Source: Phycisphaera sp.
GTDB lineage: Bacteria > Planctomycetota > Phycisphaerae > Phycisphaerales > SM1A02
DNA length: 64,000 nucleotides
NCBI GenBank assembly: GCA_016124975.1
Contig: WGMP01000035.1
Location: 1 to 64,000 of the forward strand
Reading direction: 5' to 3'
Of the stretch, positions 34,925 through 58,955 are shown piece by piece (position 1 is the stretch's first letter; every line of letters begins with the position of its first letter). The position numbers were made by a program, and so were the translations under genes. A model generated the notes under the pieces. The model was not told the origin of the DNA, made no database searches, and saw only the letters and a program-made list of their open reading frames with translations.

Positions 34925-37861
34925 CTATCCCCATGCGCCGAGCACCTCGAGCGCGACTCCGCGACGCATGGCTTCTGTGCCGCGCGCGATCCACGGCTCG
35001 TCGGCGGAAGAGCTTGTCGCACGCGGCGGCGGATGGCCCGACGCCGCGCTGCACCTGAGTCGCGCAGGCCAGCGCACGAAGACCCAGAGCCCGCCACCGA
35101 TGCACAGGCGTGCATGGAGACGCCCCCCTTCCGCCTGCGCTTCATGCACACCGATGCTGGCGTCCACGCAGCTCCACCATGGCGGCGCGAGCCGCTCCCA
35201 TCCATCGAGCGCACGCAACCGCCATGTCCGGCTCCGCCAGTGCACGGATGGCGTCGAGAAGGCACCCCATCTCGCTCCCGAAGCGTTGACGATCGGGCAT
35301 CCGATGTGGCTGAGGCCATATGCGGCGGCGCCTGCGCCTTCATGGCGCTCGCGCCATGCCGTCCGCTGCGCCATGCAGCACGACAGTTCGAGGCTGGCAT
35401 CGCCACCACTGAGAAACGCAGGCTCTGGAGGATCGAACTCCACGGACGGGCGCTCGACATGCAGGCGGATGCGCTTCGGCCCAACATGATCCACGCGCGC
35501 GCAAGGCTGTCTGGCGGGATGCAGCCCGTCGCGGCGAGCATGTCGCCCGATGGAAGCGCGCCCACCACGCGATGCAAGGAGATCGAGCCACTGCTGCGTC
35601 TCGGCATGCAAGATGCCCGACTCCGCAGACGCGATCTCGTGCGTGCCGTGATTGAAACCCCCGTGATTGAAACCCCCGTGCTTCAGGCCACCGTGCTTCA
35701 GGCCACCGTGCTTCAGGCCACCGTGCTTCAGGCCACCGTGCTTCAGGCCACCGTGCTTCAGGCCACCATGCCTCAAGCCACCATGCTCCCAAACCTCCAC
35801 CCAGCCCGCGGCGAAATCGGAATCCACTCCAACGATCGGGGGCGTGTGTGCGGCAGGATTGACCCGATGCGCGGGCGGGATTTCAGCCAGATGAGGCTCG
35901 CGCGGAGACGGCAACGGATTGACGCGCGCCAACAGGCGCCGTTGCCTGCACCGAAGGCGCACCGCACCCTCGAGGTGACACCGGATCTCCTCTATGCCGT
36001 AATCAAGCGCCACGCGCTCGAGGCGCGGATGCAGCAGCCGCCAAAGCTGGGTTCGCCGCGCACTCGGGCACGAAAGCTCAAGCATCACGACGGACTCGAG
36101 CCCTGCAGTCGCCCCGGAAGGCGCACATGCGTCCGATGAACGCCCCACCTGCATCGCATCGGTCGAAAGATCCGCAGGCAAGTCGGCATGCCGAAACACC
36201 CAGCGCGCCGACCGAAGCACCTCGCCGCGCCCATGGAGATGGCGCGACAGCCGATCGACGAGCTCACCACACGCGGCCAGCATCGTCTCACGCCTGGCGA
36301 CGGGCCCATCGAACTCCCTTCGAAAGACGACCGCGTCATACGAGCGCAGCGGAACAAGCTCCTCTGGCGAAATCCCGAGCGTCTGATCGAGACGGCGCAG
36401 CACATCTGGCGTCAGTGGCGAGGATCCACCACGGCGCTTGGGGCGCGTCCCGCGGCCTGGGCCAGAAGGATCGGTGCTCTCCGTTGATTCCCCCGTTCCC
36501 TGAAAGAGCCCAGCCTCAGCCTCCCACGGTGCGGGCGAGGCCACATGGCGACGACCGGTGCGCGCCACGCCCCGTCGGATCGGCTGCGCCATGCCGGCCA
36601 CATCCCCTGCAAAGCGTGCCGCGACCCCTTCCCGACGCAGCCGCATCAGCTGACCAACCGTGCGCACGCCCACGGACTCGAGGGCGCCAAGCGACGCCGG
36701 CGAAATGCGCAACGACTCCAGGGGGAGAGGGTCAAGATGCTCCGCCTCGCGCCCTGCGGGCACCGCTTGGACCCGGTCATCAACATCAGAACGAACGTCG
36801 CCATGAAAGTCCCGACGGACTTCCTGAGGGACATCGTCACGGGCATCGACCCACGCGCATCGCGACGGACCCACGACGCGCCGCGTGGTCGCCCGCGCCA
36901 CCGACATGCCGATCGTCGAAGCCGTCGCGGCACGAATGCGAAACCCTTTCACATGAAACGATTCCACGATCCGTCGCATGAGCGCCTGCTCCGTGCCATG
37001 CTCCTTTCGAAAGAGCCTCTGACAGCCCGTCAGGTCGCCGACAAGGCATGCACCTCCGAAGAGTTCCTCCGCCGAGGCCGTTCTTCCCTGATGCTCGCCC
37101 TCAAGAAACACGCTGGCGACGGACGCCCCTGAAGACCGCGCCCCCAAGCTGCCCTTGCCCAGAGAGTCTGCGGGGGCGTCGACATCGCCCGACGGACCGA
37201 CGAGCGCGACCCTCGGGATCCAGCGCTCCAGGCAATGCGCCAGCCTGACGAGCAGGCGGCGCTCCCGCACCCGATCCAGGCGCATGACGAGCGCGCATCC
37301 GCCCCAAGACACGCAACGGCGCCACCAAGACTCAAGCCCTGCTCCGCTCATCGCGCAAAGTCTTGCCAGCAAATCCCGCGCGGCCGAAGACGCCTCGAAC
37401 GGCGGACACATCCCCTCCGCCTGCGCCAGCGTGATTCCTGCGCGGACGCCATGCGCCTCGCAGCGCGCGCATGCAGCAACGATCCGCGCAGCGCCCCGAT
37501 GCTCTTCGACCAACAAAAATGGGCTTTCGACGAGTGCCGTGACACCGCCTCCCGCACCGCCTCCCGCACCGCCTCCCGCACCGCATTCCGCATCGCATTC
37601 CGCATCGCATTCCGAGTCGCTTCTGGCACCCCCCTCCCCATCGTCTGCGGAATGACGCATGAGGGCGCTCTCCTGACGAACCGCCGCCCCCATCATGCGC
37701 AGCAGAGCACGACGCAGCATCGATCGGCTCGCGTCAAGCCTCCAATGCGTGAAGTGAAGCGCGATGAATCGCCTCTGGTCGACCAACGCTTGGCAAGGAA
37801 CCAATGGCGACGAAGAGGCGTTGGCAGCGATGACCCTCGCAGGCTGCAGTGGCGGTGTCAT
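34925..37861 (-). CDS. imuB: ImuB, Y-family polymerase-like mutasome scaffold
   Basis: ImuB lacks polymerase activity in characterised systems and links DnaE2 and ImuA to the beta clamp. Recognisable blocks are RRFIALHFTHWRLDASRS near the N-terminus, RAGITLAQAEGMCP, and LRISPASLGALESVGVRTVG with LMRLRREGVAARF, then LRRLDQTLGISPEELVPLR. The acidic residues of true Y-family polymerases are not evident. The product has 978 residues against about 500-540 for typical ImuB. Insertions include an Asp/Glu/Cys plus Gly-rich run (residues about 80-105), a spacer within the thumb region, and a KHGGL repeat block encoded by a 15-base minisatellite. The ATG overlaps the imuA stop (ATGA). dnaE2 follows after 159 bases. 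Confidence 0.85.
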   Translation of the reverse strand: MTPPLQPARVIAANASSSPLVPCQALVDQRRFIALHFTHWRLDASRSMLRRALLRMMGAAVRQESALMRHSADDGEGGARSDSECDAECDAECGAGGGAGGGAGGGVTALVESPFLLVEEHRGAARIVAACARCEAHGVRAGITLAQAEGMCPPFEASSAARDLLARLCAMSGAGLESWWRRCVSWGGCALVMRLDRVRERRLLVRLAHCLERWIPRVALVGPSGDVDAPADSLGKGSLGARSSGASVASVFLEGEHQGRTASAEELFGGACLVGDLTGCQRLFRKEHGTEQALMRRIVESFHVKGFRIRAATASTIGMSVARATTRRVVGPSRCAWVDARDDVPQEVRRDFHGDVRSDVDDRVQAVPAGREAEHLDPLPLESLRISPASLGALESVGVRTVGQLMRLRREGVAARFAGDVAGMAQPIRRGVARTGRRHVASPAPWEAEAGLFQGTGESTESTDPSGPGRGTRPKRRGGSSPLTPDVLRRLDQTLGISPEELVPLRSYDAVVFRREFDGPVARRETMLAACGELVDRLSRHLHGRGEVLRSARWVFRHADLPADLSTDAMQVGRSSDACAPSGATAGLESVVMLELSCPSARRTQLWRLLHPRLERVALDYGIEEIRCHLEGAVRLRCRQRRLLARVNPLPSPREPHLAEIPPAHRVNPAAHTPPIVGVDSDFAAGWVEVWEHGGLRHGGLKHGGLKHGGLKHGGLKHGGLKHGGLKHGGFNHGGFNHGTHEIASAESGILHAETQQWLDLLASRGGRASIGRHARRDGLHPARQPCARVDHVGPKRIRLHVERPSVEFDPPEPAFLSGGDASLELSCCMAQRTAWRERHEGAGAAAYGLSHIGCPIVNASGARWGAFSTPSVHWRSRTWRLRALDGWERLAPPWWSCVDASIGVHEAQAEGGRLHARLCIGGGLWVFVRWPARLRCSAASGHPPPRATSSSADEPWIARGTEAMRRGVALEVLGAWG
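35651..35785. repeat. In-frame 15-base minisatellite inside imuB
   Basis: Nine 15-base units: two of ATTGAAACCCCCGTG, five exact CTTCAGGCCACCGTG, and two diverged ones. On the coding strand they read as KHGGL/NHGGF repeats. The frame is kept for any copy number. Confidence 0.95.
37546..37617. repeat. In-frame 12-base repeat near the imuB 5' end
   Basis: Three exact CGCCTCCCGCAC units are followed by three of the CGCATTCCGCAT type, all in register. On the coding strand they give the Asp/Glu/Cys tetrads and the Gly-rich run of ImuB. Confidence 0.9.
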
Positions 37862-39465
37862 GCGCTTCTCGCCCTTTCCGCCAATCGCACCTCGAACGCA
37901 TCGCGCCCATACTCGGCGCCACGCACGTCACCTGACTGCCCAAGAAGGCGCAGCGCCTCGGCGTCCACGACCATCGCCTCGGCAAGGTCGCATGGCTTCG
38001 ACACGGTGACCGCCAGGCGGCCATCCGAGATGCCTGCGTGAAGTTCATCCGCCCAAGGCGATCTGGCGATGCGCACCGCGCATTCATGTCGGTCCTCCAC
38101 ACCATGGCGAGACGATGCTTCCTCGGCATCCCGAGGCGTTGCGGCGACCACGCGGGGCGCCACCATCGACGATTTCGGCCGCGCGTGAACAAGTTCCATG
38201 CGCCAATCGAAGCCGAGGGAGCGACCGAACGGCGCGTCGAATGCGCGAGGGCCATCCGCCGTCATGCATGCACGCACCCGCCAGACGGTGCTGGCGCCAT
38301 GGAATCGCCGATGGCCGCGCCGATGCTCTCGGCCCGCCGAATCGTGCGCCAGGCCGCCCATGCGATCGCAGCCCGATGGCGGGGTCACCACGAGAACCAG
38401 CCTTCCACCCAACGACGATTCCGATCCGCGAGGCGACTCATCTCGTCCGCGCATGTCCGTTTCCTCGCCCGAATGGTCGTCGTCGCGCATGCCTGAGCCC
38501 GCCGCCAGCTGCAGCCGCCGCCACATGACATGATCAAGACCCGTTCCATCGAGGACGACGATTCCCACAGCTCCAAGGCGTATCGCCTGCTCCGCGCACC
38601 ACACCCGGGCGCAGGCAAGCCGAGATGCTTCCGTCTGCGCACTATTCGGCAACGCCCGAACTCGATCGCAGCCACCATTCCACGGGAGGCGAGTCCGTTG
38701 CCGAGCCCCCTGCGACAGCGCGAAGTCGGGCACAAAGATGGATCCATCAAGCACCGTCTCGTCAACATGGACTCCGCCAGCCTCGACCCACTTCGATGGA
38801 AGCGCGGCGGGCTGCGGGCAGACCTTGCTTCCGATCCAGGCGATGGCGCGACCTGCAAGCCGAGGGTGCGCCATGGCCCGATGCACGACATGAAGCACGC
38901 ATCCGAAGGGAACGATCCATGCAGGCCTGCCGTGACAACCGACCATGGGCTCGGCAATGTCGTCGCACAGCCCGCCCGCATCCTCATCGAGCACCAACCC
39001 TTCGAACTCATGAACGCCGCCGAGAACGAGCCCGCCCCCGAGCGCCGCGTCGACACTGGAAAGATCCGAGCCAGGACGCCCAGCTTCACATGAATGCCGA
39101 TCGCGGAACGGTGCGCCGACACCGGCATGCAGAACCACGCCATCGCCGACGGAACCGATCGGAACATGGTCCTCTTGCCCGATACCAGGAAGATCCGAGC
39201 AGAACCCCGGCATCAACGCCGCATCGCGGAGTGAGGGCCCGTCCTTCGGCGGGACATCTCCAATCGGTGGCACTCCATAAAGCGGCGGCACTGCATGGAG
39301 CGGCGGAGACAAACCATGCCGCGGCGAAGCATCCGCAGCGTCGAGCGCTGCAAGCTGCACGCGAACCTCGCGCGCGACGCATGCCGCGTCTCGGATAGGC
39401 CTGCGCCCACCCCGCCGACCCGGCAGGAACGACGACGAAAATCCTGTCTCGATGCTTCTCTTCAT
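37858..39465 (-). CDS. imuA: ImuA, RecA/SulA-like mutasome component
   Basis: ImuA is a RecA-like protein that works with ImuB and DnaE2. The core is visible in SSVDAALGGGLVLGGVHEFE and RLACARVWCAEQAIRLGAVG, followed by IVVLDGTGLDHVMWRRLQLA. I choose the ATG at 39465, which has GGAGG 8 bases upstream; the ORF-track ATG at 39561 lies inside a 13-base tandem repeat. The product has 535 residues, about twice the usual 230-250, through Pro/Gly-rich segments around residues 50-120 and insertions such as the one after LQLAAGSGMRDDDHSGEETD. No intact Walker A motif is seen. It is the first gene of imuA-imuB-dnaE2. Confidence 0.78.
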   Translation of the reverse strand: MKRSIETGFSSSFLPGRRGGRRPIRDAACVAREVRVQLAALDAADASPRHGLSPPLHAVPPLYGVPPIGDVPPKDGPSLRDAALMPGFCSDLPGIGQEDHVPIGSVGDGVVLHAGVGAPFRDRHSCEAGRPGSDLSSVDAALGGGLVLGGVHEFEGLVLDEDAGGLCDDIAEPMVGCHGRPAWIVPFGCVLHVVHRAMAHPRLAGRAIAWIGSKVCPQPAALPSKWVEAGGVHVDETVLDGSIFVPDFALSQGARQRTRLPWNGGCDRVRALPNSAQTEASRLACARVWCAEQAIRLGAVGIVVLDGTGLDHVMWRRLQLAAGSGMRDDDHSGEETDMRGRDESPRGSESSLGGRLVLVVTPPSGCDRMGGLAHDSAGREHRRGHRRFHGASTVWRVRACMTADGPRAFDAPFGRSLGFDWRMELVHARPKSSMVAPRVVAATPRDAEEASSRHGVEDRHECAVRIARSPWADELHAGISDGRLAVTVSKPCDLAEAMVVDAEALRLLGQSGDVRGAEYGRDAFEVRLAERARSA

Positions 39466-39540
39466 GAACATTCCCTCCGCATGCAGACGCATGCAGCAGC
39501 TCCTCGCCTCTTGCCGTCGCCTGGCGTCGTCTGTGGTCGT

Positions 39541-39592
39541 CGAGTCATGCCGTCGAGTCATGCCGTCGAGTCATGTCGTCGAGTCATGTCGT
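39541..39592. repeat. 13-base tandem repeat upstream of imuA
   Basis: Four units of CGAGTCATGYCGT, two with C and two with T at the variable position. Confidence 0.9.
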
Positions 39593-39635
39593 CGTGCGCG
39601 ACCGCGCGCACCATCGCTCCTCGAATCCGCAGCCG

Positions 39636-39697
39636 CGAACTCGTCTCTTCGAACTCGTCTCTTCGAACTCGTCTCTTCGAACTCGTCTCTTCGAACT
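39636..39697. repeat. 14-base tandem repeat upstream of imuA
   Basis: CGAACTCGTCTCTT is repeated 4.4 times without mismatch. Each junction creates TTCGAAC. That resembles half of a GAAC-type LexA site, but no inverted partner is present. Confidence 0.9.
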
Positions 39698-39716
39698 TGC
39701 GCCCTCAACCTCATGC

Positions 39717-39779
39717 CCTCAACGCCTCAGACCCTCAACGCCCCAGGCCTTCAACACCCCAGGCCTTCAACGCCCCAGA
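39717..39779. repeat. 16-base tandem repeat upstream of imuA
   Basis: About four degenerate units of CCTTCAACGCCCCAGG. Confidence 0.85.
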
Positions 39780-40140
39780 CACTGAAACACAACCTCACGA
39801 CGTGTCGCGCAGCGCCACTTCGATGCGTGTCGCGAACTGCAACATGCGAGATATGGCGGTGACGGCAGCGCGATCGACGCGGGCAACCGACGCGGGTAAC
39901 CGACGCGAACCAACCGATGCACGAGCGCAACACGCACGCCATAACGCGCCGATCGCCATCACGATCGAAGCCCCCGACGCCTTAAAGTTGCGGGTTGCGC
40001 GAACAGACGCGGGTTACGACCAGACACTGGCCGAAACCCCTTCATCTCGCCCATTCGCGCACCAGATTGTGGCTGCGCCAGAAATTCATCGACGTCAGAA
40101 CGCCAGCGAACTTCAAGCACAGGCCTCCAAACACAGGCCC

Positions 40141-40205
40141 TCAAGCAAAGGTCTCAAGCAAAGGTCTCAAGCAAAGGTCTCAAGCAAAGGTCTCAAGCAC
40201 GAGCC
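40141..40205. repeat. 13-base tandem repeat between imuA and tRNA-Leu
   Basis: Four exact TCAAGCAAAGGTC units and a fifth diverged unit, with further degenerate copies just upstream from about 40111. Confidence 0.9.
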
Positions 40206-40266
40206 CTCAAGCAACCCCCAGAAAATCACAAGCCCCGCCGTCTCAGCCAGATGTTTGGTGTTTGTT

Positions 40267-40451: not shown

Positions 40452-40536
40452 GCCGGTGTGGCGGAACTGGCAGACGCAGCGGATTCAAAATCCGCCGCCC
40501 CCTAAAGGCTTGCAGGTTCGATTCCTGTCACCGGCA
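40452..40536 (+). tRNA. tRNA-Leu (anticodon CAA)
   Basis: The 85-base gene has a perfect 7-pair acceptor stem (GCCGGTG / CACCGGC), anticodon loop TTCAAAA with anticodon CAA, a long class II variable arm, and the T-loop GGTTCGATTCC. CCA is not encoded. It reads UUG codons, which look rare in the GC-rich genes here. Confidence 0.95.
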
Positions 40537-42270: not shown

Positions 42271-43434
42271 ATGGCCGCTGTCCGCAACGAACTGCTCGTT
42301 CCCCTCTCGATCAACCACCGCGGAACCACCGCGGGTGAAGGCAAGAAGGCCTGGACCTCGTGGCTCGAGGCCATCATTCGCGTGGAAGGCTCCGACTTGA
42401 TCGTGAAGAGCGGCCTGCGCCCCCGCGTGCGCCACCGCGGCACGCTGAAGGACCTCGAGACCGACCTCTGCACGCCCGACCTCATGATGCAGGTCGCGAA
42501 GGACATCCTCGACCCGAACCAGCTCGACTACTTTGCGCGGCACGGCTCGATCGACTTCGCCTACGACTACCGCAAGGCAGGCGACGAAGACGGCGCCACG
42601 ACTCGCCGCTTCCGCGTCAACCTCTTCATGGCGCGCGGCAATCCGTCGCTTGCGGCGCGTCTCATCACGAGCCAGATCAAGAAGTTCGAGGAGCTCTACC
42701 TGCCGCCCATCCTCGGCGACGTGTCGATGTCGGCGCAGGGCCTCATCCTCTTCTCGGGCGTCACGGGCTCGGGCAAGTCGACCTCGATCGCATCGATGCT
42801 CGACTACGTGAACCAGCGCAAGAAGGTCCACATCATCACGATCGAGGACCCGATCGAGTACATCTTCAACGACGCCAAGGCGACGATCAACCAGCGCGAG
42901 ATCGGCATCGACGCGACGAACTTCAACGACGCCCTCCGCGCGCTCGTGCGCGAGAACCCCGATGTCGTCCTCGTCGGCGAAATGCGTGACTACGAGACCT
43001 TCGAGGCCGCCATCCGCGCCGCCGAGACGGGCCACCTCGTGTTCGGAACCATCCACGCAAGCTCGGCGTGGCAGACCTTCGGCCGCATCTACGACCTGTT
43101 TCCTGAGAACGAGCGCGACCAGATCCGCAAGCTTCTTGCGTACAACCTGCGTGCCGTCATCTACCAGAAGCTCCTCCCGACGCTCCACGCCCACATCTCG
43201 CGCATTCCTGCGATCGAGATCCTGCTCAACACCCCCGCCGTCCAGAAGTACATCCTCGAGGGCCGCGAGGGCGAGCTCCTCGACCTCATCAAGCAGGGCC
43301 ACGAGGAGGGCATGGTCGACTTCACCAGCTCGCTCGTGAAGCTCGTCGAGGACAACATGATCCACCAGCGGGTCGCGCTCGAGGCGACGCCGAAGCCAGA
43401 GGAACTGAAGATGCGCCTGAAGGGCATCGGCTGA
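42271..43434 (+). CDS. PilT-type twitching ATPase
   Basis: The 387-residue protein belongs to the type II/IV secretion ATPase family of PilT type. Walker A is GVTGSGKS (residues 163-170), Walker [11 protein letters not shown] (231-240), and the His box [13 protein letters not shown] follows. The N-terminal PAS-like region ([20 protein letters not shown]) corresponds to the PilT HASDLH region. PilT powers pilus retraction at the inner membrane. The ATG at 42271 is preferred to the ORF-track start at 42190. No pilin or PilC gene is in the window; the next gene is a decayed relative, suggesting these form one unit. The typical AIRNLI-like C-terminal motif is not obvious. Confidence 0.85.
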
Positions 43435-43539: not shown

Positions 43540-45276
43540 ATGCACGACCCGACCATGACCGCGACGCTGATGCTGGCCAATGCTCCGATCCTGATGAGCA
43601 TCGCCAAGCCGATCCTCCTCGTCGCGACCTTCGTCGTCTACATGCGCTACGTGGCCCGCTTCGAGGCCGACGCGCGCATGTACACGCTTCCCGTGCTGCC
43701 GTGGAACTTCGCTTTCGTCGGCGCGGCGATCGTCGCGCTGGCGACGGCGGTGCTGATCCCGATCTTCTTCATCGGACTGCCCGTCGCGATCCTCATCCTC
43801 GGCGGCACGATGTACGCCTACTGGAAGTTCCGCGACGCGCGCGTGCCCGAGGGCCGTCAGTTCCGCTTCGGCGGCGACAAGCTGGCGAAGGCGATGGCCG
43901 CGCGGCGGCAGGCCGCGGCCGACCGCGCCGCGAGCGTCATCTTCACCCGCGCGGGCGGCGCCAAGGAGCCTGTTCCGCAGAAGGAAGACCCCGCCCTCGG
44001 CATCTACCTCGCCCTCGAGCGCGTGGTCGTCGAGCCGATGATCGCCCGTGCGAGCCGCGTCGACCTCGTCAGCTCGCAGCAGGGCGTGGCCGTGTCGATG
44101 CTCGTCGACGGCGTCCGAACCAAGCGCGAGCCGCTTCCCCCCGACATGGGGAACGCCGTCATCGACCTCGTCAAGCGCCTCGCGGGGCTCGACGTCAACG
44201 ACCGCAGGCGACGCCAGACGGGCGCCTGCTCGGTCGCGGGCGAGTCGGGCCAGAGCGCGCTCACGGTGACCTCCATCGGAAGTTCGGGCGGCCAGACGGT
44301 GCGGATCGACTTCGACCGCGAGTCGCGTCTCGGAAAGTCGATCGACACCCTCGGCCTCGCGCCCAGTCAGCTCGAGACACTGCGCGCGCTCGAGGATCCC
44401 GCGAAGCGCGTCGGCATCGTGCTCGTCAGCACGCCCCCGGGCCAGGGCCTCACCACGCTCGGCTTTTCGCTCATCGCGCGCCACGACGCCTACACGAGCA
44501 ACATCAAGACCCTCGAGCGCGAGCTCGTCTACCGCGTCGAGGGCGTCGAGCACAAGGCGTTTGCGCCAGAGCCCGGCATCGAGGACTACGCGACCGCGCT
44601 CACGAAGATCCTGCGCCGCGACCCCGATGTCGTCCTTGCAGCCGACATCTCCGAGCCGGGCAGCGCGAAGGCCGCCACGCTCATGGGACTCGAGCGACCG
44701 CTCGTCTACGTGATGATGCCGGCCGAGAGCATGGCCCAGTCGGTCGCGAACTGGATGCAGGCCGTGGGCGACGCGAAGCTCGCCACGCGCGGACTCAGCG
44801 CGATCGTGCACCAGCGGCTCATCCGCCAGCTCTGCCCGAACTGCAAGTCGCCCTTCACGCCGACGCCCGAGCAGGCGAAGAAGCTCGGCATCCCGAGCGG
44901 CAAGCAGGTCGAGCTCTTCCGCCCGAGTGGCAAGATCCAGGTCAAGAACCGCATCGAGGACTGCCCCGTCTGCCAGGGCACGGCCTACTTCGGCCAGATC
45001 GGCATCTTCGAGGTCATGCCGCTCGACGCGGAGGCCCGCAAGTATCTCGCGGAGAACGATTTCCGCAGCGCCTACGCACGCGCCGTGCGCGACTTCAAGA
45101 TGATCCAGCTGCAGGAGGCCGCGCTCCTCAAGGTCCGCGAGGGCCTCACGAGCCTCGAGGAAGTGCAGCGCGTGTTCGCGCCGAAGCAGACAGCCGCCGC
45201 GCGCCCCGCGGGCGCTCCGCCGCTCCCAGCGGGCGCCCCGCCGCTTCCTGGCGGCAAGTCGCCCGCCAAAGGGTGA
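43540..45276 (+). CDS. Membrane-anchored GspE/PilB-like protein with degenerate ATPase motifs
   Basis: The 578-residue protein has two N-terminal membrane segments (about 14-36 and 52-90), which cytosolic GspE/PilB proteins lack. The C-terminal part aligns with the GspE/PilB ATPase: Walker A position reads TPPGQGLTT (298-306) with Leu-304 in place of the invariant Lys; Walker B reads DPDVVLAADISE (361-372) instead of DPDIIMIGEIRD; the His-box position reads VYVMMPAES without His. The zinc tetracysteine is kept (CPNC at 432-435, CPVC at 475-478), and so is the following IGIFEVMPLD. Loss of nucleotide hydrolysis is inferred; a structural or regulatory partner of the adjacent PilT is plausible. 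The tail is Pro/Ala-rich with PPLPAGAPPLPGG. Confidence 0.72.
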   Translation: MHDPTMTATLMLANAPILMSIAKPILLVATFVVYMRYVARFEADARMYTLPVLPWNFAFVGAAIVALATAVLIPIFFIGLPVAILILGGTMYAYWKFRDARVPEGRQFRFGGDKLAKAMAARRQAAADRAASVIFTRAGGAKEPVPQKEDPALGIYLALERVVVEPMIARASRVDLVSSQQGVAVSMLVDGVRTKREPLPPDMGNAVIDLVKRLAGLDVNDRRRRQTGACSVAGESGQSALTVTSIGSSGGQTVRIDFDRESRLGKSIDTLGLAPSQLETLRALEDPAKRVGIVLVSTPPGQGLTTLGFSLIARHDAYTSNIKTLERELVYRVEGVEHKAFAPEPGIEDYATALTKILRRDPDVVLAADISEPGSAKAATLMGLERPLVYVMMPAESMAQSVANWMQAVGDAKLATRGLSAIVHQRLIRQLCPNCKSPFTPTPEQAKKLGIPSGKQVELFRPSGKIQVKNRIEDCPVCQGTAYFGQIGIFEVMPLDAEARKYLAENDFRSAYARAVRDFKMIQLQEAALLKVREGLTSLEEVQRVFAPKQTAAARPAGAPPLPAGAPPLPGGKSPAKG

Positions 45277-45433: not shown

Positions 45434-47095
45434 ATGGAAACCGTCTTCAACATCCTCGTGATCGGATTCATCCTGCTGATCGCCTACTGGTGGGCGAACC
45501 AGGGCCTTTTCAGCGCGATCCTCCACCTCGTGTGCGTGTTCGCAGCGGGCGTGCTGGCCTTCGCGACCTGGGAGCCGATCGCGGGGCTCTGCCTCTCGCA
45601 GGACTGGCTGGTGCCCTACGCATGGGGCGTCGCGCTCCTCCTCCCCTTTGCGATCTACCTCTTCGTCCTTCGCGTCGCCGCCGACAAGCTCGCGCCCGAC
45701 AACCTCAACTTCCCGCAGGTCGTGAACCTCGGTGCTGGCGGCGCGGTCGGACTGGTCGCGGCGATCCTCACCGTGGGCATCACGCTGATCGGCATCGGAC
45801 ACACCCACTCGACCACCGAGATCATGGGTGTCAAGGGCGTGGTCCGCACCTCAGCCGCAAAGGGGCAGCCCGATCTCAAGGCCAGTCCGCTGTGGGTGCC
45901 CGTCCACGACATGACGGCGGGAGTCTTCTCGTGGGTCTCCGAGGGCTCCATGACCCCGACCTTGACCTCGCCGACGCTTGCGTCCATGCAGCCTGAGCTG
46001 GGCAACCAGTCGTTCGCGCTGGTGCGCGACACCTTCGTGAAGGCTGGAAAGCTGTCGCGCACCGTAGCGACCCCTGGCTCGATCCGCCTCGACAAGGCGA
46101 TTCTCGTGGGCTCCTACGCCCTCGGCAACCTGCCGCCGATGCGCGCCTATGTGGTCGACCTCAACCTTGAGCCGGGCGCGAGCGACTTCGGGCAGGGCTT
46201 CGCGATCTCCGCGTCGCAGCTGCGCCTCATCGGCGAGCGCCGCGGCGGCGTGACGCCGATCGCCTACCCCGTTGCGTGGACGCAGCCGAACTCGGGCGGC
46301 GGACGCACGCTCTACCGCTTCGACGACATCTCGAACTACATCACGGCACCCGCCGGAACGACCTCGTTCGGCGTCACGCTGATCTACCCCGCCGCCAACT
46401 TCCCCTCGACGCCGAAGTACCTCCACGCGATGGGCCTTCGCCTCGACTTCCCCGCCATCGCGCAGGAGTCGAACGAGCAGGACGCGCTCGCCATGCAGCG
46501 CGGCGGACGCACGGGCTCCGTCGAGGTCCCCGCGGGAACGCCCACGATCTCGAGCGACGACCTCGTCGTGAACGACTCGATCATGCCCGCGAACGCCAAC
46601 CTCAACAACCTCGGCGCCATGGAGGTCAAGGACACCAACTTCCTCTTCGCCGGCACGGGCGAGTACGAGACGGGCGGCTTCCAGGGCAACAAGAGCGTGG
46701 TCGTGAAGGGCATCTGGGCTCCGCCGAACACACGCGTGGTCCGCCTCAACCTTTCGCGCGGCTCGCGCAACTCGATCGACTTCTGGAACGACCGCGACAA
46801 GATGCGCGAGGAGGTCGGTGAGGAAGCCGAGCTCGCGCTCGTCGACGACGCGGGCAACCTCTACCGGCCGATCGGCTATCTGCACGCGATCAAGGGCGGC
46901 GATCGCCGCGTCGTGATCAATCTCGAGCGCGCAGGCAAGTTCTTCAAGATCGGCAGCTATCCGAACCTCGCGAGCGCAGGCGTCGACGACCTCTTCGCCC
47001 TGTTCACCCCCGCGGTCGGTCGAAAGATCGTGGGTGTCAAGCTCGGCGAACGCTGGGTCGCGAGCGCGAGCCTCGACGTTCCCGTCAAGAACTGA
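45434..47095 (+). CDS. CvpA-like membrane protein with large C-terminal domain
   Basis: The 553-residue protein starts with about four membrane helices (FNILVIGFILLIAYWWANQG, then AILHLVCVFAAGVLAF and others up to about 130) whose pattern resembles CvpA (colicin V production protein). The rest, about 420 residues, is beta-rich and hydrophilic (LDKAILVGSYALGNLPPMRA, FLFAGTGEYETGGFQGNKSV) and resembles nothing I recognise; it would most simply lie outside the membrane. It follows the decayed GspE-like gene by 157 bases in the same direction. The 157-base gap shows no gene. Function unknown; the context suggests envelope transport or assembly. Confidence 0.55.
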   Translation: METVFNILVIGFILLIAYWWANQGLFSAILHLVCVFAAGVLAFATWEPIAGLCLSQDWLVPYAWGVALLLPFAIYLFVLRVAADKLAPDNLNFPQVVNLGAGGAVGLVAAILTVGITLIGIGHTHSTTEIMGVKGVVRTSAAKGQPDLKASPLWVPVHDMTAGVFSWVSEGSMTPTLTSPTLASMQPELGNQSFALVRDTFVKAGKLSRTVATPGSIRLDKAILVGSYALGNLPPMRAYVVDLNLEPGASDFGQGFAISASQLRLIGERRGGVTPIAYPVAWTQPNSGGGRTLYRFDDISNYITAPAGTTSFGVTLIYPAANFPSTPKYLHAMGLRLDFPAIAQESNEQDALAMQRGGRTGSVEVPAGTPTISSDDLVVNDSIMPANANLNNLGAMEVKDTNFLFAGTGEYETGGFQGNKSVVVKGIWAPPNTRVVRLNLSRGSRNSIDFWNDRDKMREEVGEEAELALVDDAGNLYRPIGYLHAIKGGDRRVVINLERAGKFFKIGSYPNLASAGVDDLFALFTPAVGRKIVGVKLGERWVASASLDVPVKN

Positions 47096-47242: not shown

Positions 47243-47917
47243 ATGCTTGAAGGCAACATGCAGGGGGAGGTTCCGCCCAGTCGATCTGCGGAGGGTGGTC
47301 TGTCGGCGCGGGGAGCTCTTGCCGCGGCGCGGGGCGCTCTTGCCGCCGCGCGGGACGCACTCGCCGCCGGGCACCTCGCGATCGCGGCAGCGTCACGAGG
47401 GATCGGTGGGCCTCTCGCGTCGATTCGTTCCGAAGGTCTTGGCGTCACCTTCGCCTACCTCGTCCACAGGCTGCGTGGCCTCCTGCCGCGCCTTTCCCGC
47501 GACCCTGGAGAACGCACGGCGGAGCGATTTGTCCGCGCGTTGGGCATGAGAGTCATCGCACGGAACTGGCGCAGCGCCCGCGATCGGCGCGACGAGGCCG
47601 ATCTCCTGGCCCTGAGCCCCGATGGCGCCCTCCTCATCGTGGTCGAGGTAAAGCGGGCGGCGGGTCCGTGGGATGCGCTCGAACGGGTCGACGGACGCAA
47701 GCGCGAGGTGCTGTGGCGGCTTCTCTGCGATCTCGAGGAATGCGTGCGCCGCGCGCGAACAGGCGCACCCGCGCGGGGAGATCCCCCTCGGCTCGCGGCT
47801 GTTCGCCGCATCCGGGTCGACCTCGTCGGTGTCGAGGGCTCGGCGCGCCATTCCATGGTGTCGCGCCAAGTCACCGCGCTCTTCGAGCGCGAGGTCTCGC
47901 GACGCGGAGGCTCGTGA
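47243..47917 (+). CDS. YraN/UPF0102 family protein with N-terminal helical extension
   Basis: Residues about 88-150 match YraN/UPF0102, a family with a restriction-endonuclease-like fold: GERTAERFVRALGMRVIARN, then DEADLLALSPDGALLIVVEV and KRA. The catalytic-type residues E, D and E-x-K are present (ERF, DEADLL, VEVKRA). Function in the family is not settled. GGGAGAAG precedes the ATG. The first 85 residues are an Ala/Arg/Leu-rich helix encoded partly by a 21-base repeat (ARGALAAARGALAAARDALA) and are absent from normal YraN proteins of about 120 residues. Confidence 0.75.
   Translation: MLEGNMQGEVPPSRSAEGGLSARGALAAARGALAAARDALAAGHLAIAAASRGIGGPLASIRSEGLGVTFAYLVHRLRGLLPRLSRDPGERTAERFVRALGMRVIARNWRSARDRRDEADLLALSPDGALLIVVEVKRAAGPWDALERVDGRKREVLWRLLCDLEECVRRARTGAPARGDPPRLAAVRRIRVDLVGVEGSARHSMVSRQVTALFEREVSRRGGS
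47305..47367. repeat. 21-base in-frame repeat in the yraN-like gene
   Basis: Three units of the type GGCGCGGGGAGCTCTTGCCGC. The unit encodes seven residues, so copies add two helical turns each. Confidence 0.8.
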
Positions 47918-47925
47918 CGCGTGGG

Positions 47926-48013
47926 CGCGCGCAGGCAGCTGCAGGGGTGCGCGCAGGCAGCTGCAGGGGTGCGCGCAGGCAGCTGCAGGGGCGCGCGCAG
48001 GCAGCTGCATGGG
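47926..48013. repeat. 22-base tandem repeat with GCAGCTGC palindromes
   Basis: Four units of YGCGCGCAGGCAGCTGCAGGGG; only the first base of the unit and one base in the last copy vary. It begins 9 bases after the yraN-like stop codon. Each unit carries the palindrome GCAGCTGC. Confidence 0.95.
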
Positions 48014-48300
48014 CGCCTTGCCAAGTCTTGCGGCAGGTCACCCCTCTCCGTCTCGGGCCGACGGCGGCGCGGTCCGGTGGGCGCCGCAAGCAACCCAGCG
48101 GAGGGCGCGCCGTGCCGTCGGCGATCCGATGCAGGAGCGCGCAGTGCGTTTTGCCTTCGCCCTGCTGCGGTTCTCCTTGAGTGGCCGGTGTGGCTGATGC
48201 TGTCTCGTTCTCGCAGGGAGGCACGGCGGAAGACTCTCTCCTCGCCACGCAGGTAGGCCGAAGTGGGAGACTTGGTCTCGTCGACGCTGCGCCTTAGAAG

Positions 48301-48364
48301 CTCAGGGTCTCAGGGTCTAAGGGTCTAAGGGTCTTAGGGTCTCAGCGCTTCAGGGCCTCAGGGC
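48301..48364. repeat. Telomere-like octamer array
   Basis: Eight units of the type CTMAGGGT: two CTCAGGGT, two CTAAGGGT, one CTTAGGGT and three diverged. The consensus resembles eukaryotic telomere repeats by chance of composition; the location is internal. Confidence 0.9.
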
Positions 48365-48586
48365 GAGATTTCGAGTCCCTGACCTCTCGAAGCTTGAGAT
48401 GGCCGAGAGACCTGGCCGGTGCAGCGGCAGTTCCAAGTCCCCTTCGTTTCTCCGCAGGCCCGTTCTCAGTGCCCGTCTGCCTCCGTGCCTCCACGCCTCC
48501 GCAAGAGACCCCGAGACCGCCAGCCACAGGCTGGCCGCACAAGCTCCCACGGCACTTCGCCGACACGAAAGCCTGAAGACTCGCGC

Positions 48587-48663
48587 AAACAAGGCAGAGA
48601 CAAGGCAGAGACAAGGCAGAAACAAGGCAGAGACAAGGCAGAGACAAGGCAGAAACAAGGCAG
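48587..48663. repeat. 11-base repeat with a 33-base higher-order period
   Basis: Seven contiguous units of ARACAAGGCAG. The variable base runs A,G,G,A,G,G,A, giving a 33-base super-unit and showing that the array grew by duplication of three-unit blocks. Confidence 0.92.
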
Positions 48664-48732
48664 AAACCAGGCCCAATCAACGCAGCAACAAGGCCGCAAT
48701 CAAGGCGGTCATCGAGTCGGAAGCCCAGCCGC

Positions 48733-50046
48733 TCACTGCCAGTATCGCTGCAGCGCGATGTCGATCAGCTTGCGCTCAATGCGCGAGATGTCGTCGGTCA
48801 CCCAGCGGCTGCGAAGGCTCTCGAAGTAGCGCTCGCGCTCGATGATTCTGCGGCGCGCCCGAAGTTCGTCCTCGATGGCGAGCTGGACCTCGGGGTCGTA
48901 GATCGAGCGCGCATCGGGGGTCTCGACATCGAGAACCGCGTACCATGAGACGAAGTCGCGCGACTCAAGCGGCCGGCTCACGGCGCCCTCGGCGAGTCCT
49001 TCGAGCCGGGCCTTGATGGCGTCAGAGAACTCAAGGCCCGCGATGCCGTTCTCAGGCAGTTCGAATGCGTTCCAAAGTCCACCGTCGGCGACCTTGAGCT
49101 CGGCGGCGATGGCTGCGAAGTCCTTGCCCTCAGCCACCCATGCCTTGACCCGCTCGATCGCGGCGGCGTCTGACTCGACGGCAAGCCGGATGCGGCCGAT
49201 GCGGATCCGCGGCCTCGGGTTGAACTCGCTGCGGCGGCGTTCGTACTCCTGCTCGACATCGCGCCAACTGACGATCGCACGCGGCTCGATGCGTTCGTTG
49301 AGCAGGCGTCGCGCGAGCTGCGTGTCGCGCGTGATGCGGAGGAAGTCCTCGATCGAGCCGCCCTCCTCCTCCTGCAGGCTCGCCTCCGCGGCGGCACGGA
49401 TGCCACCACGCTGCGCGATGGTCTCCTCCTGCAGCGAACGAAGCCATGCAAACAGACCTGCCTGCTGCTCGGGCGACAGCTTTGACTCAGCCTCCGCCAC
49501 CACAAGCTCGCTGTCGACCGCGGCCTTGAAGCGCTGTGCGACGAACGCCTCGAGCGTGCGGCGCGCCTGCGCGCGGTCGGCGCCCGCGGCGATCACGCGA
49601 AGCTGGTCCTCGATCGGCTCGAAGAACTCCTCCGCGTAGATCGGACGCCCGTTCACCTGCCCGACGAGGGACTCGACCGGCCACACGCGCACCTCGTCGA
49701 GCGGTGGGCGCATCGCATCGCGCTGCGCCCCGTTGCGTCGATCGGAAGCAGCGGCACCAGATGCGGCGACATCGGCGCCGCCGAAAGGACCCGCATCCGC
49801 ATCGGCTCCAGCCGCGCCCTGCTCTTCCGAGGCGGAGCCGTCCCCGTCGATCCGATCGCGGGAACCGTCGAGCACACGAGGATCCATGGCCACGGCGTCC
49901 GGATCGATTCCCGCGCGCGGCTTGGAGAAGTCTCCAAGCGCCACGGTCGTCGACCGCAGTTCCTCGGACGAACCGCACCCCGCGAAGAGAGACGCGAGCG
50001 ATCCGAGGGAACCAAGAAGGATCGCGGAGGATCGGGTGCGGAACAT
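48733..50046 (-). CDS. SurA/PrsA-like peptidyl-prolyl isomerase lipoprotein
   Basis: The 437-residue protein has a lipoprotein signal peptide (GSLGSLASLFAGC-GS), a Gly/Ala/Asp-rich linker (about 25-115), then a SurA-type N-domain (LVGQVNGRPIYAEEFFEPIE) with helical segments, and a parvulin-like domain (about 280-385: RIRIGRIRLAVESDAAAIER, then KDFAAIAAELKVADGGLWNA and FSDAIKARLEGLAEGAVSRP). Such proteins assist folding of exported proteins at the outer membrane or cell surface. Catalytic parvulin residues cannot be verified by eye. It is divergent from the DUF1844 gene across 57 bases. Confidence 0.78.
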   Translation of the reverse strand: MFRTRSSAILLGSLGSLASLFAGCGSSEELRSTTVALGDFSKPRAGIDPDAVAMDPRVLDGSRDRIDGDGSASEEQGAAGADADAGPFGGADVAASGAAASDRRNGAQRDAMRPPLDEVRVWPVESLVGQVNGRPIYAEEFFEPIEDQLRVIAAGADRAQARRTLEAFVAQRFKAAVDSELVVAEAESKLSPEQQAGLFAWLRSLQEETIAQRGGIRAAAEASLQEEEGGSIEDFLRITRDTQLARRLLNERIEPRAIVSWRDVEQEYERRRSEFNPRPRIRIGRIRLAVESDAAAIERVKAWVAEGKDFAAIAAELKVADGGLWNAFELPENGIAGLEFSDAIKARLEGLAEGAVSRPLESRDFVSWYAVLDVETPDARSIYDPEVQLAIEDELRARRRIIERERYFESLRSRWVTDDISRIERKLIDIALQRYWQ

Positions 50047-55926: not shown

Positions 55927-56748
55927 ATGGTTTCCGACACCCAGAGTGCCCCACGCCCGTCCGCCAACGCCAGCCGCACGGTCCGATTCCGCATCAAGCG
56001 GCAGGACCGCCCGGGCGAGGCACCTCGCTGGGAGGAGTTCCTCGTCGACGCGGAGCCGGGGTCGAATGTGATCGCCTGCCTCCAGCAGATCGCCCGCATG
56101 TCGAAGACGGCCGAGGGCAAGGCCACGACGCCCGTGTGCTACGACTCGGGCTGCCTCGAGGAGGTCTGCGGTTCCTGCGCGATGGTGATCAACGGCAAGG
56201 TGCGCCCGTCGTGCTCCGCGCTCGTCGACAAGGTCGTCGGCCCCGACGGCACCATCACCCTCGAGCCGATGTCGAAGTTCCCCGTCGTGCGCGATCTCGC
56301 GGTCGACCGCTCGCGCGCGTTCCACAACCTCGAGCGCGTGAAGGCGTGGGTCCCGATCGACGGCACCTATCACCTCGGCGCGGGGCCGAAGGACACTCCT
56401 GCCAACCAGGAGACGCGCTACACGCTGTCGACCTGCATGACCTGCGCGTGCTGCCTCGAGGCGTGCCCGCAGTTCAACCTCGAGGAGGACAAGTCGAAGT
56501 GGGACGGCGAGTTCATCGGCGCCCACGCGATCTCCCAGGCTCGGCTCTTCAACGCCCACCCCACGGGCGCCGCGCTCGCGTCGGAGCGCCTCGATGTCCT
56601 GATGGCCAAGGGCGGCGTGAACGACTGCGGCAACGCGCAGAACTGCGTGAAGGTCTGCCCGAAGGAGATCCCGCTGACCGAGTCGATCGCAGCGATCGGC
56701 CGCGCGGTGACGGTGCACGCGATCAAGAGCTTCTTCAGCGGGCGATAG
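55927..56748 (+). CDS. sdhB: Succinate dehydrogenase iron-sulfur subunit
   Basis: The 273-residue protein carries the [2Fe-2S] ligands in CYDSGCLEEVCGSC and the two ferredoxin-type cluster motifs (STCMTCACCLEACPQ and NCVKVCPKEIP), so [4Fe-4S] and [3Fe-4S] clusters are expected. It passes electrons from SdhA to the SdhC haem. A 20-residue N-terminal extension precedes the family start. It is complete and shows no sign of decay although it is 2.4 kb downstream of sdhA, with two opposite-strand genes in between. Confidence 0.95.
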   Translation: MVSDTQSAPRPSANASRTVRFRIKRQDRPGEAPRWEEFLVDAEPGSNVIACLQQIARMSKTAEGKATTPVCYDSGCLEEVCGSCAMVINGKVRPSCSALVDKVVGPDGTITLEPMSKFPVVRDLAVDRSRAFHNLERVKAWVPIDGTYHLGAGPKDTPANQETRYTLSTCMTCACCLEACPQFNLEEDKSKWDGEFIGAHAISQARLFNAHPTGAALASERLDVLMAKGGVNDCGNAQNCVKVCPKEIPLTESIAAIGRAVTVHAIKSFFSGR

Positions 56749-56761
56749 CCCCAGCGCGCCG

Positions 56762-57031
56762 CCAACGATCTGTATCGCGCGACACGAAAATCAGGCGTGC
56801 CCGCATGCTTCAGCATGCGGAACGGGTGGTGTCAGCCGTCGACTCCGACGCGTGTCGTTCCGCAGGTTGAAACCTGCGGGCACCCCTGGTGAATGACTCC
56901 GACGACCTGAATCGCGCGACACGAAAATCAGGGGTGCCCGCATGCTTCAGCATGCGGAACGGATGACGCCAGCCGTCGACTCCGACGGGCTGCGTTCCGC
57001 AGGTTGAAACCTGTTGACACCCTAGTTGAAC
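56762..57031. repeat. Tandem pair of a REPIN-like palindromic element
   Basis: A unit of about 137 bases occurs twice in tandem. Each has GTGCCCGCA at one end, a hairpin CCGCATGC-TTCA-GCATGCGG, an AACG/CGTT flank, and a second hairpin CCGCAGGT-TGAA-ACCTGCGG with TGCGGGCAC at the other end, the exact inverse of the first terminus. Copy 2 has a diverged right end (TGTTGACAC). The build matches REP doublets mobilised by RAYT transposases; no transposase is in the window. The 299-base gap after sdhB is filled by this element. Confidence 0.8.
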
Positions 57032-57047
57032 GACGCCCACGCACCAG

Positions 57048-57743
57048 TCACCGTCGACGCCGTCGCACCGCCAGCATCCCGACGAGCGCTGCCGCCATCG
57101 CGGGCGGCGCGGGGATGTTCACCGTGAAGATCAGCATCTCGCCCGCGCCAGAGCCGGGCCGAAGCGGATCGGCCATGCCAGGCGTGTTCCGCCAGATCCA
57201 GCGCGCGTCGGTGGTGATGCCCGCGATCACGCCCCACGGCGCGATGCCGTTGTGCTCGCCGACATAGGTCGGTTCCCACGCGCCGAGCCCGTCGGCCGAC
57301 GCGATGTGCGCCTCGATCTCCGACGCGAGCGGATGTGGCGCGCCCGTGTTTCGGTCCGTGTTCGTCGCATAGACGCGCCAGCGCGCGTCGCCCGTCAGCA
57401 GCGTGCCGAGCGACGGCGAGGAGAACTGCGCGAGAAGTCCCTGTGCGACCGAGTTGTCCGACCACGCTGCGATGTAGATCGTCTCGGTCGCCTCGAAGCT
57501 CCAGGTCTCGGCGATCGACCAGTTGAAGGTTCCCGGGTTCCCCGCGAAGCCCGTCTCGTTGCCGCCGATGTAAGTGAAGGTCGACCCCGCGCGCGTGAAG
57601 ATCGCGTAGTGGTTGTCGCAGGTGATCGTGGTGGTGACGAGCTCCGCATGCGCCGACGGCGCGGCGACGAGGAAGAGCGCGGCGAGCGGATGGACGACGG
57701 CGTGCGCGATGGCCCGCGCGCGTCTCGGTTGATCGATGAACAT
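57048..57743 (-). CDS. Secreted protein with PEP-CTERM-like sorting signal
   Basis: From the ATG at 57743 (GAGGGGAA upstream) the product has 231 residues, with an N-terminal signal peptide (VVHPLAALFLVAAPSAHA) and a C-terminal PAPPAMAAALVGMLAVRRRRR: a Pro-Ala-Pro motif, a hydrophobic helix and an arginine run, the tripartite layout of PEP-CTERM-type tags. The middle is a beta-rich domain with many aromatic and Thr/Asn residues (CDNHYAIFTRAGSTFTYIGG, TWSFEATETIYIAAWSDNSV). Function is unknown; it is presumably anchored in the outer envelope after processing by an exosortase encoded elsewhere. It is a single gene downstream of the SWIM protein on the same strand. Confidence 0.7.
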   Translation of the reverse strand: MFIDQPRRARAIAHAVVHPLAALFLVAAPSAHAELVTTTITCDNHYAIFTRAGSTFTYIGGNETGFAGNPGTFNWSIAETWSFEATETIYIAAWSDNSVAQGLLAQFSSPSLGTLLTGDARWRVYATNTDRNTGAPHPLASEIEAHIASADGLGAWEPTYVGEHNGIAPWGVIAGITTDARWIWRNTPGMADPLRPGSGAGEMLIFTVNIPAPPAMAAALVGMLAVRRRRR

Positions 57744-57920
57744 CTGTTTCCCCTCTTTGGTTGTGCGTCGGCCGTGCAGCGCGCACGGCTCGATGCCGCG
57801 AGGGTGCCGCGGATCCTGCGGATTGCAACGACTGCGGCGCCCGCTCAAGGCAGACGGAACCCTGCGGCGTCTACCTGTGCCGCCTATTCCGTCTCTGCGG
57901 CCTCTGCCGTCGCGCGACGC

Positions 57921-58955
57921 CTATTCCGAGGCCTCGTCGCGCCCCGCAGGCGCGTCGGCGGCGCGGTCCTTGAGCTCGCGACCGCGCGCGGCGATCGAGT
58001 CGTAGATCGACGCAAGCAGCCCGACGAGCGGGAACTTCCCCTGCAAGGGCGACTGTCCGAGTCGACGAAGGAGCGCGTGCGGCGCGAACGGCTCTGTCTC
58101 GTCGGAGAGCGCGTCGATCTGCCGTCCCGGCCGCCAGAAGCTGTCGATGCAGCGCTCAAGCGGCTGCGCCTCGGGCGCGCGCTCGACCGCGGGCGGCGTC
58201 GAGTGGGCGCGCGCAACGCCTCGCGTCGCGATCGCGCGCGCTTCCTGGAGCCGCTCGAGGAGCCGCTGTCCGTCGAGGCCGCGCAGCGTGAACGCAAGGA
58301 GCGGGTCGCCCGAGAGGCGCTCCGTCACGAGCGCGCCGACGCAACCGATGTGCTTGCACGGCTTCGGTAGGTCGCAGGTGCAGGTGCGCGTCACGGTCGC
58401 GGGATCGGTGGGCACGAGCTGCTGCCCGAGCGACACGAACGGCTGCTCGACGAGCGGCGGCATCTCGCCCGCGAGAAGCTTCGCCGAGTAGACCGCTTCA
58501 CGCGCCATGATGGAGACCACACGGTCCCAGTCGGCCGCGGAGATCGCGACGGGCGCGATGCGCACGGCGTAGGGCCGCGATGCACGGCCCTGCACGGTCG
58601 CCTCGATGCCCGCAGGCGTGATCTGCAGCGACGCGACCTGCCCTGCGCGCGCATAGTCGAGCGCCTCCGCCTTCACCCCGTCGACGATTCCATCGAGGAG
58701 GATGCCGCACCACGCGTCGGCGGGCCACGAGAGGAGGTCGATTCCCTCGCGCCTGCGCAGGCGGATGCCGTTCTTCAGGCGGCGCGGCGTGTCGGGCCTG
58801 CGCATCTGCCGCACGCCCGGCCCCGCGTTGAAGGTCGAGTTGCGCGCGAAGGGGTTCGGCGCGGCGGGTGCCGCACCAGGCGCGACCTCGGCGGGCTGCG
58901 CCGCGTTTGCCGCAGCGTCCGCCGTGTTGCGGGTGGTGTCGTCGGGAGCGCTCAT
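57921..58955 (-). CDS. SWIM zinc-finger protein, partner of the SNF2 helicase
   Basis: From the ATG at 58955, 344 residues. The SWIM motif is CTCDLPKPCKHIGC (about 190-203), with the C-x-C...C-x-H layout. NGIRLRRREGIDLLSWPADA near residue 65 and YSAKLLAGEMPPLVEQPFVS before the finger fit the SNF2-associated SWIM proteins. The first 50 residues are an Ala/Pro-rich tail. It overlaps the SNF2 gene by 4 bases (ATGA), so both are made together. A role with the helicase in chromosome or RNA-polymerase maintenance is inferred. The ORF-track entry to 61646 is mostly a frame shadow of the SNF2 gene. Confidence 0.8.
   Translation of the reverse strand: MSAPDDTTRNTADAAANAAQPAEVAPGAAPAAPNPFARNSTFNAGPGVRQMRRPDTPRRLKNGIRLRRREGIDLLSWPADAWCGILLDGIVDGVKAEALDYARAGQVASLQITPAGIEATVQGRASRPYAVRIAPVAISAADWDRVVSIMAREAVYSAKLLAGEMPPLVEQPFVSLGQQLVPTDPATVTRTCTCDLPKPCKHIGCVGALVTERLSGDPLLAFTLRGLDGQRLLERLQEARAIATRGVARAHSTPPAVERAPEAQPLERCIDSFWRPGRQIDALSDETEPFAPHALLRRLGQSPLQGKFPLVGLLASIYDSIAARGRELKDRAADAPAGRDEASE

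Follow-up and report, generated by a model that had tools for sequence, protein, structure and literature searches.

Motors of the PilT, PilB, GspE and VirB11 type are understood as rings that burn ATP, and one locus in a 64,000-nucleotide stretch of planctomycete DNA (the window) raises the question of what a protein of this family is kept for once its motor residues have gone. The gene at issue, called the dead motor for brevity, lies between a gene for a PilT-family ATPase and one for a CvpA-domain membrane protein (Table 1).

Table 1. Features of the dead motor and its two neighbors, in window positions.
Feature	Position	Strand	Basis or detail
PilT-family ATPase, Walker A, Walker B and His box intact	42271..43434	+	TIGR01420, motifs, tree
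Membrane-anchored GspE/PilB-family putative pseudo-ATPase (P0001)	43540..45276	+	578 aa ORF
Three predicted membrane helices, residues 22-99	43603..43836	+	AlphaFold2, hydropathy
T2SSE (GspE/PilB) domain, residues 159-545	44014..45174	+	Pfam, Foldseek
Walker A equivalent TPPGQGLTT	44431..44457	+	Lys position is Leu304 (44449-44451)
Walker B equivalent DPDVVLAADISE	44620..44655	+	Asp369 at the catalytic Glu position
Region of the lost His box, residues 386-397	44695..44730	+	motif alignment
First zinc cysteine pair CPNC (C432, C435)	44833..44844	+	alignment
Second zinc cysteine pair CPVC (C475, C478)	44962..44973	+	alignment
CvpA (Colicin_V) domain membrane protein	45434..47095	+	Pfam PF02674 in orthologues, AlphaFold2, adjacency

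By fold, the protein belongs with the assembly ATPases. The T2SSE family (PF00437) matched it over residues 159-544 with an E value of 2e-30 (106.1 bits over a cut-off of 24.9), the Pfam scan returned no other credible domain, and T2SSE was also the sole Pfam domain common to 35 orthologues; phmmer and Foldseek both placed it with PilF, PilB and GspE, the latter at E values down to 1.9e-33. It is one of several such proteins in its genome, which holds seven further members of GspE/PilB type, and it falls well short of the equivalog cut-offs TIGR02538 (142.2 versus 675.65 bits) and TIGR02533 (158.5 versus 630.25 bits), as does a Lys-containing relative, L139 (415.6 and 436.3 bits). Ordinary PilB and GspE are soluble cytoplasmic proteins, often with an N-terminal MshEN/T2SSE_N domain; in place of that soluble N-terminal part the dead motor has hydrophobic helices, which by hydropathy occur in every member of its family and are missing from all soluble paralogues. 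Our AlphaFold2 model (35 orthologues; mean pLDDT 90.5) has three of them, at residues 22-47, 52-72 and 76-99, and the hydropathy scan has two strong peaks only. An earlier note, made from the letters alone, had read the gene as a membrane-anchored PilB/GspE paralogue with two membrane helices ahead of the domain; the domain match, the fold and the helices bear out the family and the anchor, but the helix count does not hold in the model.

What the protein has lost is most of the chemistry. The motifs listed in the earlier note (TPPGQGLTT with Leu304, VVLAADISE, CPNC, CPVC, IGIFEVMPLD and a missing His box) are all as described, with YVMMPAES standing where the His box is expected; the Walker B replacement needs softening, since VVLAADISE is present but places Asp369 at the Glu position, a conservative change. 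Set against functional PilB/GspE, the dead motor thus lacks the Walker A Lys, the Walker B Glu and the His box and is not a soluble protein, and it is like them in the whole domain, in the Foldseek fold and, in most members, in the zinc tetracysteine. Not one of 118 distinct class orthologues (the class being Phycisphaerae, to judge from named relatives) has the Lys at position 304, where Leu (60), Arg (24) and Val (12) prevail over Thr, Gln, Ser, Ile, Ala, Gly and Met, so that the case is not one of a single decayed copy; beyond the class, all 13 membrane-anchored homologs carry the Lys. When 97 class members are set beside those 13 Lys-containing proteins, the invariant positions lost include K304, R371, H387, H394, D227 and D173/H175/E177, among others, and those retained include G303 and Glu326 of the Asp box (97/97 each) and R429 (96/97), with Thr or Ser at 305 in 94/97 and Asp or Glu at 369 in more than half. 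No substitute lysine is conserved among the 118 sequences (Lys at 300 in 23, at 301 in 8), and neither the protein nor its orthologues matched another P-loop family in Pfam. An alternative P-loop or a deviant lysine can be ruled out on these grounds, and with no intact Walker A elsewhere in the protein the proposal of a pseudo-ATPase stands, as far as residues can tell.

The loss is matched by retention. Orthologues were found in 59/61 genomes ranging from the same genus to the same order, and across the class a full-length or nearly full-length copy is present in 117/120 genomes, the exceptions being G099, G129 and G160; among relatives in named records, metagenome assemblies of planctomycetes predominate, many of them labeled Phycisphaerales or Phycisphaerae, in keeping with the group that the earlier note had proposed to survey. 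The genome survey covered Planctomycetota, and because the phylum scan scored the best few candidates per genome, relatives of the dead motor may be more widespread than seen. We set aside dN/dS among close relatives, because strong codon bias seems to have compressed the synonymous distances. All four zinc cysteines are found in 111/118 class orthologues, the window protein among them, and these together with the conserved structural residues agree with the earlier view that the gene is retained and not decaying. Three of the four are lost from a clade in genus g23 of the same order (L056, L057, L074, L076), which has ASCS instead; its zinc region reads ALAKSSRE...PCPES and the remainder of the protein is retained. 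Zinc is thus dispensable there, and zinc-dependent docking, as suggested earlier, would not be a universal property.

The dead motor is also kept in company. The neighboring PilT exceeds the TIGR01420 cut-off (390.8 versus 319.1 bits) and has all its motifs, as had been claimed, and with other cluster PilTs it forms a clade of its own (SH-aLRT 99) apart from the PilT of pilus clusters; every complete cluster PilT has the Walker A Lys, two exceptions being truncated at locus ends. Two ATPase genes of one superfamily therefore lie side by side, one with its chemistry lost, which makes a good internal control. Counted over class loci with enough sequence, and leaving out the non-member L130, PilT adjoins the dead motor upstream in about 96/110 and a CvpA-domain gene adjoins it downstream in 113-114/114 (113 scored, one by eye), so that the order of the three genes holds in most class loci and the CvpA-like gene, suspected earlier of being a third member, proves the most constant partner. 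In loci from other Planctomycetota, PilT is the neighbor in 9/15 and CvpA in 13/16 at a loose score threshold, with at least one of the two at every locus. Three sampled genomes of the class family f11 (G065, G102, G108) have the dead motor and CvpA and no cluster-type PilT anywhere, their best PilT matches being 40-43% identical, and one family f8 genome has a cluster-type PilT elsewhere (53% identity). These exceptions leave the dead motor and CvpA as the steady pair, and the f11 genomes mean that docking of PilT cannot be its sole role; the idea of a fixed ring for the adjacent PilT accordingly retains the support of adjacency and loses its claim to be the whole explanation.

The CvpA assignment itself is made at the level of the family. 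The window protein scores 18.6 bits against Pfam Colicin_V, below the cut-off of 29.3, and 25/27 of its orthologues match that family (PF02674), at best with an E value of 1.4e-7. In its AlphaFold2 model (mean pLDDT 85.4), four N-terminal helices are followed by a long C-terminal part rich in beta structure, and a structure search with the model returned no significant match (best E 4e-3, probability 0.11); in Lys-containing relatives the CvpA protein is shorter, at about 185-250 aa. In enteric bacteria, cvpA has been linked to resistance to bile salts and to the export of colicin V, with the mechanism unexplained (PMC6705877).

Beyond these three genes nothing recurs throughout the surroundings: the conserved-neighbor survey of loci found no pilin or platform gene adjoining the cluster, and a larger conserved operon or flanking pilus genes were rejected. 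A hisF-like gene lies directly upstream on the same strand in 13 loci (e.g., L055:4410-5321) and an IMP dehydrogenase gene in 5, both apparently local neighbors. In the window, a tRNA gene (40452-40536) adjoins an IMP dehydrogenase gene, dense short tandem repeats with periods of 8-39 bases lie on both sides of the cluster (35646-40214 and 47306-48706), and a UPF0102 (YraN-like) gene (47243-47917) and a weak PPIC-type isomerase match (48733-50046) lie beside it, the last two recurring in L042 from the same genus. A separate pilus cluster, in which one PilT lies between two genes for soluble PilB, is found on contig C34 of G000 (56664-61056); this PilB-PilT-PilB arrangement also occurs in L120, a few kilobases from the dead-motor cluster, and in L130, and recurs in other class genomes.

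The earlier note had not anticipated that Lys-containing relatives would occupy the same cluster in other Planctomycetota. Outside the class, a small number of the sampled genomes have proteins (families f47, f54 and f68) that are linked to PilT and/or CvpA and possess a three-helix membrane domain and a GspE domain homologous to those of the dead motor; these proteins differ from it in having a GPTGAGKSTT-type Walker A, the Walker B motif GEIRD and a HANDT-type His box, and with these intact they are presumably active motors. Proteins of families f88 and f97, also outside the class, are degenerate again. In a tree built without the catalytic columns, 37 class members group as a single clade (SH-aLRT 99) that adjoins the Lys-containing membrane-anchored proteins, with the soluble paralogues apart save for L007, whose place is uncertain. 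For the GspE-domain tree, one clade uniting every degenerate protein is not rejected (AU p = 0.57), and from the GspE domain alone a single loss of catalysis is possible; in the PilT tree, the f88/f97 PilT falls together with that of f47, and its placement with the class is rejected (p = 1.5e-5). Inheritance of the cluster as a unit would mean two losses of catalysis. A cluster of the same make-up in a few other Planctomycetota, its motor intact and presumably active, points to an active ancestor that lost catalysis once or, taking both trees together, twice, with the cluster PilT keeping all of its motifs.

We propose that the dead motor is a non-hydrolyzing membrane ring that serves, with CvpA, as a scaffold and docking platform, and give this reading a probability of roughly 0.4. 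With its N-terminal helices the protein would anchor itself in the inner membrane, and it would be kept for its shape, not for hydrolysis; it would most likely form a ring or partial ring, presumably hexameric, beneath the membrane and in contact with CvpA, onto which the dedicated PilT, where present, may dock and supply ATP-driven movement. In f11, which does without this PilT, the engine would be another PilT, or none would be needed, and with no pilin or platform gene beside the cluster any link to a filament stays putative; the substrate may be a pilus, an envelope polymer or some other molecule. A precedent that fits such a scaffold is found in Vibrio cholerae, where PilU drives retraction via a catalytically inactive PilT (PMC13142100; also PMC11656802). 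The likeness is a dead ring on which another ATPase of the family depends, a dependence that we infer for the Planctomycetota protein; the inactive V. cholerae PilT is a laboratory mutant, whereas the dead motor is dead by nature and class-wide, of PilB type and membrane-anchored.

A nucleotide-free PilB-like ring might instead move nothing and use its membrane domain and CvpA to report to or restrain another pathway, either envelope polysaccharide or the output of pili. The case that fits such signaling is Myxococcus xanthus, in which ATPase-deficient PilB still regulates exopolysaccharide and the nucleotide-free form is proposed to be the active one (PMC5544727); the two are alike in a PilB function with no need for ATP hydrolysis, but the M. 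xanthus protein is an ordinary, active motor and the dead motor is without motor residues from the start. That the constant partner is CvpA and not PilT, and that f11 genomes manage without this PilT, speak for a regulatory role as well. We nonetheless rank the scaffold above it, because an intact dedicated PilT adjoins most class members and many Lys-containing relatives, which suggests a mechanical past, and consider signaling possible but unlikely.

Improbable, in our judgment, is an inhibitory or assembly subunit that mixes with soluble PilB and PilT rings in the usual machinery of type IV pili or type II secretion. The seven other GspE/PilB-type proteins of the genome and the proximity of the two clusters in L120 would suit such a subunit, as would a T2SSF platform protein in 119/120 class genomes, though at that frequency co-occurrence is uninformative about dependence; against it, the gene lies outside pilus operons elsewhere, its PilT clade is private, and its membrane domain is missing from the ordinary proteins. 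We give little credence to a non-canonical site that still binds nucleotide and perhaps slowly turns it over: the retention of G303, Thr/Ser 305, Glu326 and an acidic residue at 369 would favor it, but no alternative Lys is conserved and Arg371, His387, His394 and the D/H/E at 173/175/177 have gone as well. A single decayed copy, pseudogene or sequencing artifact, for which nothing speaks beyond the motif loss itself, is ruled out for practical purposes by near-universal retention at or close to full length, the same cluster across sampled class families, and the conserved structural residues and zinc cysteines; judged from sequence, the dead motor is a probable non-enzyme that is kept class-wide.

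In agreement with the earlier note, which knew of no system with this make-up, we found no PilB pseudo-ATPase, PilT-CvpA association or such Phycisphaerae system in the open-licence PubMed Central literature, which holds few subscription journals and no preprints. We tentatively suggest, at odds that leave it doubtful, that the cluster may encode an undescribed pilus-derived envelope machine of Planctomycetota, composed of an anchored PilB-like protein, its own PilT and CvpA, with neither pilin nor platform genes to itself. The helices and CvpA would then replace the PilC/GspF platform, and a PilB-like ring that lost hydrolysis twice independently would now be pure structure. The PilT/PilB-like/CvpA cluster is an uncharacterized, near-core gene set in a large and little-studied bacterial class, and it presents a naturally occurring, class-wide example of a motor whose fold was retained while its chemistry was given up. 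The case can be compared directly with relatives that have the Lys and share the cluster, and it allows a test of which part of a PilB-type protein serves structure.
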